Shown here: one piece after another, positions 4,535 to 51,117 of the stretch
How the letters are laid out: each line of letters begins with the position of its first letter
How positions within the stretch are numbered: position 1 is the first letter of the stretch
Origin: Clostridium sp. 'deep sea'
GTDB taxonomy: Bacteria; Bacillota; UBA994; PWPR01
Direction of reading: 5' to 3'
Length of the DNA stretch: 64,000 nucleotides
NCBI RefSeq assembly: GCF_014931565.1
Contig: NZ_CP063353.1
Span: forward strand, 1,364,001 to 1,428,000
The notes under the pieces: generated by a model
Databases searched by the model: none
What the model was told of the DNA's origin: nothing
What the model saw: only the letters and a program-made list of their open reading frames with translations
Translations under genes and position numbers: made by a program

Positions 4535-4740
4535 TTTATTGAAATAAGAAAAGGCAGGTTTCCTGACTTACAGCTTAATTTACTCTCTTTCCTTCCCAGA
4601 TTACTCCAGTGGTTACAAGATTTCATTGCTGCTTACAGTAGCGGGGGCTGCAATAGATTTACACTATTTTCCCTATTACCTCAATTACGAGCACCTTTTC
4701 TATGCCAAAGTTAGTATATGGCAATTACTCTCAATATTCA
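4535..4740 (-). promoter_or_regulatory. cobalamin riboswitch
   Basis: The leftward strand carries recognisable cobalamin-aptamer landmarks in order: AAAGGTGC near the 5' end (about 4690-4697), GCAGCCCCCGCTACTG (about 4640-4655), then CCACTGG and the 3' closing stem AGTCAGGAAACCTGCC (about 4553-4568). An intrinsic terminator follows. It precedes the importer lipoprotein gene, so B12-type ligand should switch the operon off. Exact ends are approximate. Confidence 0.93.
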
Positions 4741-38700: not shown

Positions 38701-38742
38701 AAAAAAATAGTATAAGTCTTTTACGTGATAAAAGACCTATAC
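38701..38742 (-). terminator. terminator after the winged-helix-like gene
   Basis: GTATAGGTCTTTTA and TAAAAGACTTATAC pair around TCACG, then T7 on the leftward strand. Confidence 0.9.
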
Positions 38743-38783
38743 CATTGTAATTAACATAAAAACAAATTAACTATTAAAACTTG

Positions 38784-39872
38784 TTAATAAACTATGTAAC
38801 TTGCAACACCCTCTTTAGGTATTTTTACTACTCTTTTTTCTACTAAAATATCAGTTATTTTGGAGTATAAGAGATGATACCACCAAATAAAATACTCGTT
38901 AAAACTTATTTCATTTACATAAACTGACTTGCTGTAATTATTATAAATCATTGCTTTGTTTTTATTTAAAATTTTTATTAAGTCAGCTGTAATAATTTTA
39001 GCTATGTCATACCATAGGGTAAACTGCTGCTGACTTAAAATAGGGATACTGATAGATTTATCATTCATTATGCCTAATTTATTAAATCCATTAATATTCT
39101 GCTCACTTATTTCATAAGTATTGTAAGAATAATACTTAAGCAACTGCTCCAATAAATAAGATTTATTGCTTAATACATCTCTATGATTATTAATATTAAA
39201 CCACTTAGTAAGTTGACTTTGATTAAGGTTATGAAAATTAATACCATTTCTTTTATTCCCATAAACCCCCAACTCCACAGTTCCATACGATTTAATCATA
39301 TTTCCGTAAATTCTAAAAGCCTCAACTTCACTACTTGGATCTTTCTCTTGTATAGAATAATAATAATTCATAGTATTTCTTATAGTTCTTTTAGAACTCA
39401 AAAATAAACTCTCAACATAATCTATTTGAACTGCATCTAAGATTATATTACTTAATACCAAAAGTGAAATGTCTTCAAAATTAAACTGTTTAAAACATTT
39501 TAAACTTAGAGCCTGCTGTTTTATTTCACTTAAGCTACTTATAATTAAATCTGCAACTTCTATGTCGATATTAAGCAATTGATTATAAAGTTGTTTACCT
39601 TCATTAAGGGTTATAATCATAAAGTTTGGTACATAGGTATCTTTTACTTTAATTATTAAATCTTCATTTAATAATAGTCGTATTCTATTAAATAACTTAA
39701 TATCATCCCAACCAAAATAGTCTTTAATTTCTGCTAATGATATTCTGCAATGTAATAAGATACACAAGGATTTGAGATTATTATTATTAATATTTATCTT
39801 AGGGTAATTTTCTCCTGAAGATATTATTTTAGTTTCAAAGTTATTTATTAAAATATTCTGTATATTTTTCAT
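38784..39872 (-). CDS. hypothetical protein with N-terminal winged-helix-like region
   Basis: A 362-residue cytoplasmic protein I do not recognise. Residues about 30-85 (LKSLCILLHCRISLAEIKDYFGWDDIKLFNRIRLLLNEDLIIKVK, read in parts) look like a winged helix-turn-helix that would bind DNA or mediate dimerisation. The rest is helical and rich in Asn, Ile and Tyr, with no catalytic motif, signal peptide or membrane helix. The gene is downstream of the selenium glutaredoxin by 24 bases and is followed by a terminator, so both may be one transcript. A regulatory role is only a guess. Confidence 0.6.
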   Translation of the reverse strand: MKNIQNILINNFETKIISSGENYPKININNNNLKSLCILLHCRISLAEIKDYFGWDDIKLFNRIRLLLNEDLIIKVKDTYVPNFMIITLNEGKQLYNQLLNIDIEVADLIISSLSEIKQQALSLKCFKQFNFEDISLLVLSNIILDAVQIDYVESLFLSSKRTIRNTMNYYYSIQEKDPSSEVEAFRIYGNMIKSYGTVELGVYGNKRNGINFHNLNQSQLTKWFNINNHRDVLSNKSYLLEQLLKYYSYNTYEISEQNINGFNKLGIMNDKSISIPILSQQQFTLWYDIAKIITADLIKILNKNKAMIYNNYSKSVYVNEISFNEYFIWWYHLLYSKITDILVEKRVVKIPKEGVASYIVY

Positions 39873-39896: not shown

Positions 39897-40229
39897 TTAC
39901 ACAATAAAGTTATTTTTACACTTTTGACATGTTATTTTTAAGTTTTTCTTATCTTTTGGTACTCTTAGTCTTTGTTTACAATGAGGGCAATTTATTATTT
40001 TGTAATCAATTAATTGCATTAATTTTTGAATGTCTAGTCCTACAAAACTTTCGTTTCCTACTACAAAAGCAGGAACACCTCTTAAACCCTTAGTCATTAA
40101 AACATTTCTGGCATTTTCATCTGTACTAACATTATGCTCTGTAAATTTTAAACCATTTTGCCTAAGATACTCTCGGGCTGTATGACAATGTGGTCAAGTA
40201 CTACTGGTATATAATTCAATATTAATCAT
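39897..40229 (-). CDS. glutaredoxin-like protein with UGA-encoded Sec and C-terminal zinc ribbon
   Basis: The full frame begins at ATG 40229 (AAGGATGATG before it) and reads MINIELYTSST-U-PHCHTAREYL, with an in-frame UGA at 40194-40196 (codon 12). It sits where the first cysteine of the glutaredoxin CxxC belongs, so the protein is a UxxC thiol-redox enzyme. The thioredoxin fold continues with RGVPAFVVGNESFVGLD (cis-proline loop at GVPA). After residue 75 comes an unusual zinc ribbon: CPHC near 82 and CQKC near 102, with RLRVPKDKKNLKIT between. At 110 residues it is longer than the usual 75-80. Reading from the internal start at 40097 alone would leave a headless fold. Confidence 0.87.
40153..40193 (-). 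promoter_or_regulatory. candidate SECIS hairpin in the glutaredoxin mRNA
   Basis: Directly after the UGA, CCA and a loose lower helix pair with UGG, and an upper GCC/GGC helix closes a 13-base loop CGAGAGUAUCUUA containing G-U. The same GCC/GGC upper stem appears in the ATPase candidate. Folded by eye only. Confidence 0.4.
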
Positions 40230-40251: not shown

Positions 40252-41466
40252 TTAGTTTATACTACTTTGTAAAACTGAAAACATTTGTTCAATATGCTCT
40301 TGTAAACTTTTTTTATTAAATTGCTCAAAACAACTAGTAGTTAAATTGCCTCCATTTAGCCCTAAAGGAGCATTTTTTTGATAAGGACCTGCAATTCCGG
40401 TCATCATACCTTTAATACTAAATTGATTAAAACTTGTTTTAAACTTAAAGAAATACCATTCATATTTTTGAATACCATCTTCTGTTTCAAAAATGCAAAC
40501 AAGCTCTAAATCCTCTGGAGCACAAGCAAATAAGCTATTATCTATTAACCATTTAACCATATCACTCTCCGCAAAAAATTCGGCAGTAATATAAGTACAA
40601 GGGAATTTATCTAGTAACCCTAGTTCATTTAAAGATTTATATAAACAGTTTCTAACCTCAGGATCTTGAGCCATTTTTATAAAATCTGACTTTCTTACAT
40701 TACCATTAAGTTTAATAATAGCGATGGCTGCGTATAGTCTTATTTTCATATCACCAATACGCATAAAGGATCTTAACGCTGAAACAAAGTTCTCATCACC
40801 TATTTTTCCCGATAACTCTAATAACAAACAAGATGTTTTTCTAATTTTTAAATACTCTGGATTTTTAAATTTCCAATTTACACCATTTTGATGTCTATAT
40901 TTACTTAGTGAGGTAGAGGCTACAATTAAATCTGCTATTAAGTTCTCTTTTAAGCTATTTATGTAGTTTACAGTAGCAACACTTACTACCTCTAATGCTA
41001 AACTATACATAGAATCTTTTAACTCTTTATTGCTAAAACAATCATTTATATTTTTTAAAAACTTAAAAGCAAGTTTTTTATTATTTTTAGTAATATCAAA
41101 AGGAATAGTATTTATACAATTTTTATTTTTAACTAGTAACTTAGCATACAGCTCAATAGATTCTTCACAATTTAAATAGTCCAAATACTTTAAGCTTGCT
41201 TGTTTAAGACTGCTATTCCATGATTCAAAACTAGCCTCAATATCAATCATTAGTTCAGGTCTTTTTTCAGCAAAAGCTAAATCAGCTAATAATGCGCTTA
41301 AGTCTTTATTAATATCCTTATAATCATTAGCTAAAACTAAAAGCTTTTTTCTTTCTGTTGTACTATATGATAACTCCCTAGCTTTATTAATATAGTTATG
41401 AATGTGTTCAAAGTCCCCAACCTTTAAGTACTGAATTAAACTAGACAAATTATCTAAGTGTTCCAT
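40252..41466 (-). CDS. hypothetical HEAT-like helical protein
   Basis: A 404-residue protein without signal or membrane segments. The first 300 residues are short amphipathic helices of HEAT/ARM type, for example SSLKQASLKYLDYLNCEESIELYAKLL near 87-115 and MRIGDMKIRLYAAIAIIKLNGNVRKSDFIKM near 235-265. The last 100 residues form a different, beta-containing domain with EDGIQKYEWYFFKFK and MTGIAGPYQKNAP. I know no family for it. It lies 22 bases upstream of the glutaredoxin gene and could share its transcript; no function follows from the sequence. Confidence 0.6.
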   Translation of the reverse strand: MEHLDNLSSLIQYLKVGDFEHIHNYINKARELSYSTTERKKLLVLANDYKDINKDLSALLADLAFAEKRPELMIDIEASFESWNSSLKQASLKYLDYLNCEESIELYAKLLVKNKNCINTIPFDITKNNKKLAFKFLKNINDCFSNKELKDSMYSLALEVVSVATVNYINSLKENLIADLIVASTSLSKYRHQNGVNWKFKNPEYLKIRKTSCLLLELSGKIGDENFVSALRSFMRIGDMKIRLYAAIAIIKLNGNVRKSDFIKMAQDPEVRNCLYKSLNELGLLDKFPCTYITAEFFAESDMVKWLIDNSLFACAPEDLELVCIFETEDGIQKYEWYFFKFKTSFNQFSIKGMMTGIAGPYQKNAPLGLNGGNLTTSCFEQFNKKSLQEHIEQMFSVLQSSIN

Positions 41467-51009: not shown

Positions 51010-51025
51010 CCTAAGTCAGAAATAT

Positions 51026-51117
51026 ACAGCGGACGCGATGTTTTATCGCGAAAATTATTCTTCGTCTAAAGACTACATCCCATTCTTTAGCACTTTACGC
51101 AAAACATCTACTCTGTT
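51026..51117 (-). promoter_or_regulatory. tetrahydrofolate (THF) riboswitch
   Basis: The leftward RNA reads GAGTAGATGTTTTGCGTAAAGTG, GAATGGGATGTAGTC, GACGAAG and at the 3' side CATCGCGTCCGCTG. These match the order and spacing of the THF aptamer (GAGUAG..GCGUUAAGUG, GAAUGGGAUGUCGUC, ACGAAG, GCAUCCGCUC). It controls folT. Ends approximate. Confidence 0.92.

Follow-up and report, generated by a model that had tools for sequence, protein, structure and literature searches.

A predicted selenocysteine-containing glutaredoxin with a C-terminal zinc-ribbon-like tail in Clostridium sp. 'deep sea' and other Bacillota

Glutaredoxins with selenocysteine (Sec) in the active site and thioredoxins with an added zinc finger are both known kinds of protein, and an attacking Sec together with a resolving Cys is established within the glutaredoxin family as the signature of a dithiol-type reductase. 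For thioredoxin-2, PMC8615215 states that mutation of the zinc-binding cysteines in DrTrx2 lowers reductase activity without abolishing it, and that the finger is thought to contact targets. Here we describe a gene of Clostridium sp. 'deep sea', located in a 64,000-nucleotide stretch of the genome that we call the window, in which a Sec-glutaredoxin is joined to a four-cysteine ribbon. Our literature searches, made mostly without subscription papers, returned no description of a Sec-glutaredoxin/zinc-ribbon fusion, the portions of PMC8579941 and PMC8612252 available to us (from the literature on glutaredoxins and zinc ribbons) describe none, and none of the Pfam and NCBIfam families that were matched covers both parts. 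Such a fusion is easily lost in annotation because, read in the standard way, the gene would stop, or start anew, at the UGA. As judged from sequence, it is a real but modest variation on a known protein type, and one that recurs in many related anaerobes.

The fusion gene and its in-frame UGA

Translated from the minus strand with UGA as U, the gene encodes MINIELYTSSTUPHCHTAREYL...CPHC...CQKC...FIV (Table 1), and a Shine-Dalgarno-like AAGGATG lies immediately 5' of its ATG. The standard reading yields only a 66-residue frame downstream of the UGA. The glutaredoxin profile PF00462 matches residues 4-60 (2.5e-15; 56.8 bits against a curated cut-off of 22.9) and is matched by 18/18 fusions in the alignment of 18 of the 29 collected below. 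The expectation that the glutaredoxin fold would be complete before the ribbon is upheld by a metal-free AlphaFold model (mean pLDDT 90.7; ribbon blocks 85-92) and by alignment to the solved structure 7c10 over residues 1-75.

Table 1. Features of the fusion gene and its surroundings, in window coordinates
Feature	Position	Strand	Properties or basis
Sec-glutaredoxin/zinc-ribbon fusion gene	39897..40229	minus	110 residues, TAA stop, one frame with UGA read through
Glutaredoxin domain, residues 1-75, complete beta-alpha-beta-alpha-beta-beta-alpha fold	40005..40229	minus	PF00462, AlphaFold model, 7c10 match
In-frame UGA, codon 12, read as Sec	40194..40196	minus	aligned to TGT/TGC in 13/29 homologues
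Predicted SECIS hairpin, apical loop GUA, 23 nt past UGA	40160..40178	minus	pairing, covariation, local folds
C-terminal ribbon, residues 76-110, net charge +9	39900..40004	minus	profile matches, alignment, AlphaFold model
First ribbon CxxC, CPHC, residues 81-84	39978..39989	minus	invariant 29/29
Second ribbon CxxC, CQKC, residues 101-104	39918..39929	minus	invariant 29/29
Upstream neighbour, 404 aa, 22 nt gap to fusion gene	40252..41466	minus	no confident family; HEAT_2 only E 0.13
Downstream neighbour, 362 aa, 24 nt gap	38784..39872	minus	no family above Pfam cut-off
Terminator-like hairpin closing the three-gene run	38706..38746	minus	3 in region vs 1.4 expected in shuffles

The initial annotation took the UGA for selenocysteine and UPHC for a UxxC motif, and the homologues bear this out, with Cys forms aligned at the same codon. 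Among 29 distinct full-length fusion proteins the position is TGA in 16 and TGT or TGC in 13, a count that is not a frequency because one of the two search patterns was Cys-only (TCPHC); the pattern search gave 34 loci, 20 of them full-length fusions and 14 not. A sample of 398 genomes from the phylum contained 12 with the full fusion, four of which are source genomes of the search profile, and the codon is TGA in all 12. The pattern that the initial annotation had named as refuting its reading is not what the homologues show. Residues N-terminal to the UGA are conserved across the aligned fusions and the Cys forms continue through the site; Met45, from which a downstream-only product would start, is poorly kept (Met in just 6/29).

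Published constraints on bacterial SECIS elements, as given in PMC13188914, call for an apical loop that is small, has a G near its start and lies 16-37 nt after the UGA. A predicted hairpin common to the 16 Sec genes conforms to them, its loop (GUU or GUA) starting with G at 23 nt from the UGA. Over the seven pairs of this hairpin in the 16 Sec forms, 84.8% of cells are paired and 10 cells show two-sided changes, neither value being equalled in 500 shuffles, and registers slid along the alignment reach a pairing of at most 69.6%; the number of pairs with two-sided changes (four) was equalled by 93/500 shuffles and so does not stand above them. The same columns in 12 of the 13 Cys forms (L099 was omitted as a near-copy of L097) are 41.7% paired with no two-sided changes. 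G opens the loop in 16/16 Sec forms and 0/13 Cys forms, and local folding energies run from -4.7 to -10.0 kcal/mol in the 16 Sec genes versus 0 to -3.0 in the 13 Cys genes. The window gene forms 6/7 pairs in this register and five other Sec genes form 4 or 5.

The machinery that the initial annotation had proposed to look for is present in full: the genome, a single contig of 3.83 Mb, carries SelB, SelA adjoining SelB, SelD, and a tRNA-Sec with anticodon TCA. SelD (L056:10067-11092) is probably itself a selenoprotein, since its own frame contains a UGA close to the N-terminus (GGGUSSKIG). By the sequence evidence presented here the fusion protein is a genuine selenoprotein, in which UGA 12 would be decoded as Sec with the aid of the hairpin just 3' of it, and at this level both the Sec and the joining of glutaredoxin to ribbon are confirmed.

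The ribbon, its relatives and its genomic setting

The C-terminal CPHC/CQKC ribbon pointed out at the start is likewise genuine. CxxC-x16-CxxC occurs in 29/29 fusions with its four cysteines at identical spacing (motif length 24), giving the two CxxC knuckles at fixed distance that a zinc ribbon requires, and the tail is basic, with a mean net charge of +6.5 (range +1 to +11) across the 29 fusions, whereas the glutaredoxin part is neutral (about 0). Zinc-ribbon profiles stay under their cut-offs, both on residues 77-109 (Zn_ribbon_4, PF13717, 24.4 versus 30.3 bits) and in the NCBIfam comparison of the window protein (MJ0042, TIGR02098, 14.5 versus 20.9 bits). A profile of the ribbon itself found nothing strong among PDB sequences, the best match being 8.6e-4 across 14 residues, and the Deinococcus radiodurans Trx2 (7ysi) matched weakly (E 0.023). 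The structural comparison with the PDB covered residues 1-76, so that the ribbon fold was barely included. We consider that the four-cysteine basic ribbon probably holds zinc.

Outside the fusions, the ribbon is matched best over its full length by small proteins that are hydrophobic N-terminally and carry this same ribbon at the C-terminus, none with a glutaredoxin (L049, L050, L143-L148, and also L093:4365-4772); one of these membrane-ribbon proteins, scanned against Pfam, met no family above cut-off. All seven Acetobacterium-type loci have a membrane-ribbon gene on the strand of the fusion, 0.2-4.4 kb upstream. At the sensitivity used, a search of the window's genome for further ribbon proteins returned the fusion only. 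The ribbon may have been recruited from this membrane-ribbon family.

The search for glutaredoxins with a C-terminal ribbon, suggested by the initial annotation, thus turned up 29 distinct full-length proteins, all from Bacillota, with bearers including Fusibacter paucivorans, Acetobacterium dehalogenans and A. wieringae, Alkaliphilus serpentinus and many metagenomic Bacillota. A thirtieth, of Cys type and outside the 29, came from Acetoanaerobium noterae in a protein search of plasmids; its record (NZ_CP154629.1, L133) is labelled plasmid pTPELB2, and the size of 2.63 Mb suggests a mislabelled chromosome. One genome holds a tandem pair, in which the fusion gene is preceded at about 0.8 kb by a second Sec glutaredoxin-like frame with VVPLUPHC (L062; G135:C1:1104319-1104528). 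A tree of the glutaredoxin part was built from 66 of 73 hits (at least 60 bits) and has 78 columns only; on it, ribbon presence needs two changes and the Sec/Cys state nine. Two ribbonless rows are nested among the fusions in the best tree, and a constraint keeping the 29 fusions together was not rejected (p-AU 0.143). The ribbon's history is best read, from these sequences, as one gain and one loss, the latter in G017 and G165, two related genomes whose Sec glutaredoxins (L068, L070) terminate where the ribbon should start, and the ribbon would therefore be dispensable somewhere.

The fusion gene and its two neighbours are likely to share a transcript, given the short gaps, the common strand and the terminator-like hairpin that follows (Table 1). 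Elsewhere in the window, at 4536-4713 and 51025-51117, cobalamin and tetrahydrofolate riboswitches are matched with scores that exceed the gathering cut-off. The names HEAT protein and winged-helix protein, first given to the neighbours, do not stand, neither protein reaching a Pfam cut-off, and the supposed glutaredoxin-HEAT-winged-helix order does not recur: searches of 61 genomes returned the 404-aa protein in two, namely the window genome and one congener in which it sits on a different contig from the fusion gene, and the 362-aa protein in one, the window genome only. Because these neighbours are so confined, gene order says little about function. Conserved order was pursued as a clue by clustering 352 neighbouring ORFs from 30 loci (the 29 fusion loci plus the ribbonless G017) and was set aside when only lineage-bound neighbours emerged; across these 30 loci no partner-revealing neighbour is conserved between lineages. 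The seven Acetobacterium-type loci share the membrane-ribbon protein (7/7), a DnaJ-like protein (6/7) and a rhodanese-type CoA-disulfide-reductase-like flavoprotein (5/7), the four Fusibacter-type loci have MutY, a diacylglycerol-kinase-like protein and a sugar-phosphate dehydrogenase as neighbours, and the window has only two peptidase genes nearby in common with its nearest congener.

Proposed function and competing explanations

We propose that the fusion is a dithiol-type Sec-glutaredoxin whose basic, zinc-bound ribbon docks or selects its partners, a reading to which we assign a probability of roughly 0.6. Sec 12 would be the attacking residue of the UxxC site and Cys15 the resolving residue of the intermediate, and the enzyme would reduce disulfide, selenenylsulfide, or sulfenic or selenenic bonds in partner proteins. 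The ribbon may carry a structural zinc ion and offer a surface that selects or orients those partners; a structural or docking role fits because the same ribbon ends membrane proteins that have no glutaredoxin. Zinc binding, docking, catalytic direction and substrates are what we infer from the sequence and model comparisons.

The genome suggests where a client might be sought. A selenoprotein glutaredoxin adapted for reducing a selenoprotein methionine sulfoxide reductase, MsrA, was reportedly described in 2011, in a paper cited by PMC13188914, and one of the two MsrA genes here (L142, G000:C1:2251303-2251746) has an in-frame UGA in GUFWN and encodes a Sec-MsrA, the other (L141) being a Cys form with a longer frame of 342 aa. 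This enzyme is therefore a natural first candidate client, and by analogy it is plausible that the fusion serves it. Two additional Sec-glutaredoxin-like genes (L002, L004) are just as good candidates for that task; one of them lies about 1.2 kb from selB. As to the electron supply, no bifunctional glutathione synthetase GshF exceeded cut-off in the genome, and one thioredoxin-reductase homologue fell just under its own cut-off (338.4 versus 343.45 bits).

It is also possible that the ribbon is a relay or switch, its cysteines exchanging electrons with the Sec site or releasing zinc on oxidation, so that it acts as a sensor or electron store. The invariance of the ribbon cysteines is compatible with this, as is the disulfide formation and zinc release in the zinc domain of Escherichia coli Trx2 after H2O2, a report cited in PMC8615215. 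Flavin redox proteins are neighbours in several lineages (the CoA-disulfide-reductase-like protein noted above, a nitroreductase at L053 and an FMN reductase at L127), and an NADH:flavin oxidoreductase lies two genes upstream of the fusion in the window. However, these neighbours vary by lineage, the same ribbon occurs in membrane proteins without any redox domain, and a structural zinc site would call for just such a constant spacing of 16 residues. We consider a relay or switch unlikely, and the sequence comparisons lean towards docking or structural zinc.

A bolder proposal would be that the basic ribbon, taken once from membrane-anchored ribbon proteins, steers the selenoglutaredoxin to a single acidic partner, whether a client enzyme, the ribosome or RNA, or else that zinc release on oxidation switches the Sec site, which would make this an uncatalogued selenoprotein family; we regard that combination as speculative and quite improbable. 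The ribbon might also position the glutaredoxin on nucleic acid or the ribosome, a role suggested by its charge and by a weak similarity of its profile to ribosomal S27e ribbons (E 0.0025); but that match spans fewer than 20 residues around one CxxC, basic ribbons are able to dock proteins too, and the gene context is without nucleic-acid genes, all of which makes this very unlikely. That the UGA simply ends translation, or arose by sequencing error or as a lesion in a pseudogene, with the downstream frame the sole product, accords with the standard reading, which lists 40097-39897 alone, and is practically negligible in the face of conserved coding before this codon, the exchange of Sec and Cys, covariation in the SECIS hairpin, a full set of sec components in the genome, and TGA in every fusion-bearing genome of the phylum sample.

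The related Sec and Cys versions, with and without ribbon, form a natural series for studying the effects of selenium and of an added zinc module on an anaerobe glutaredoxin, and the same series could show whether a Sec-glutaredoxin serves Sec-MsrA.

Relation to known systems

The closest solved relative of the fusion is cGrx1 (7c10, 7c12), a name given in the PDB title and belonging to what we take to be the glutaredoxin of Clostridium oremlandii. It is 42-46% identical, with the same glutaredoxin fold and active-site position, and the glutaredoxin part of our AlphaFold model superposes on 7c10 with Z 14.2 and 1.2 Å over 75 residues; the solved chain, in contrast, stops after that fold and has no ribbon. 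Sec-glutaredoxins, as represented by the PF00462 entry in the selenoprotein table of PMC13188914, share the UxxC motif with Sec at the attacking position, whereas a zinc-ribbon fusion is not mentioned in the accessible part of that paper. Among glutaredoxin-like families, Uxx-star and HUGP/GUXX-star (NF041212, NF045501) resemble the fusion in that some members contain Sec and one family is itself a fusion, but the partner is different and the window protein falls under both cut-offs (48.7 bits versus 66 for Uxx-star). The YruB-family glutaredoxin TIGR02196 is still the best NCBIfam match, at 71.5 bits versus a cut-off of 88.55.

The ribbon has its nearest counterpart in the membrane-ribbon proteins, which share it at up to 59% identity over 32 residues and differ in having a hydrophobic N-terminal part in place of the glutaredoxin. 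In plan, the fusion resembles thioredoxin-2, exemplified by DrTrx2 in PMC8615215, which also couples a thioredoxin-fold reductase to an added four-cysteine zinc finger. There the finger is N-terminal, the domain is a thioredoxin and the active site contains Cys, and the likeness that we claim is one of working mode: a thioredoxin-fold reductase that may meet its partners through an attached zinc module.
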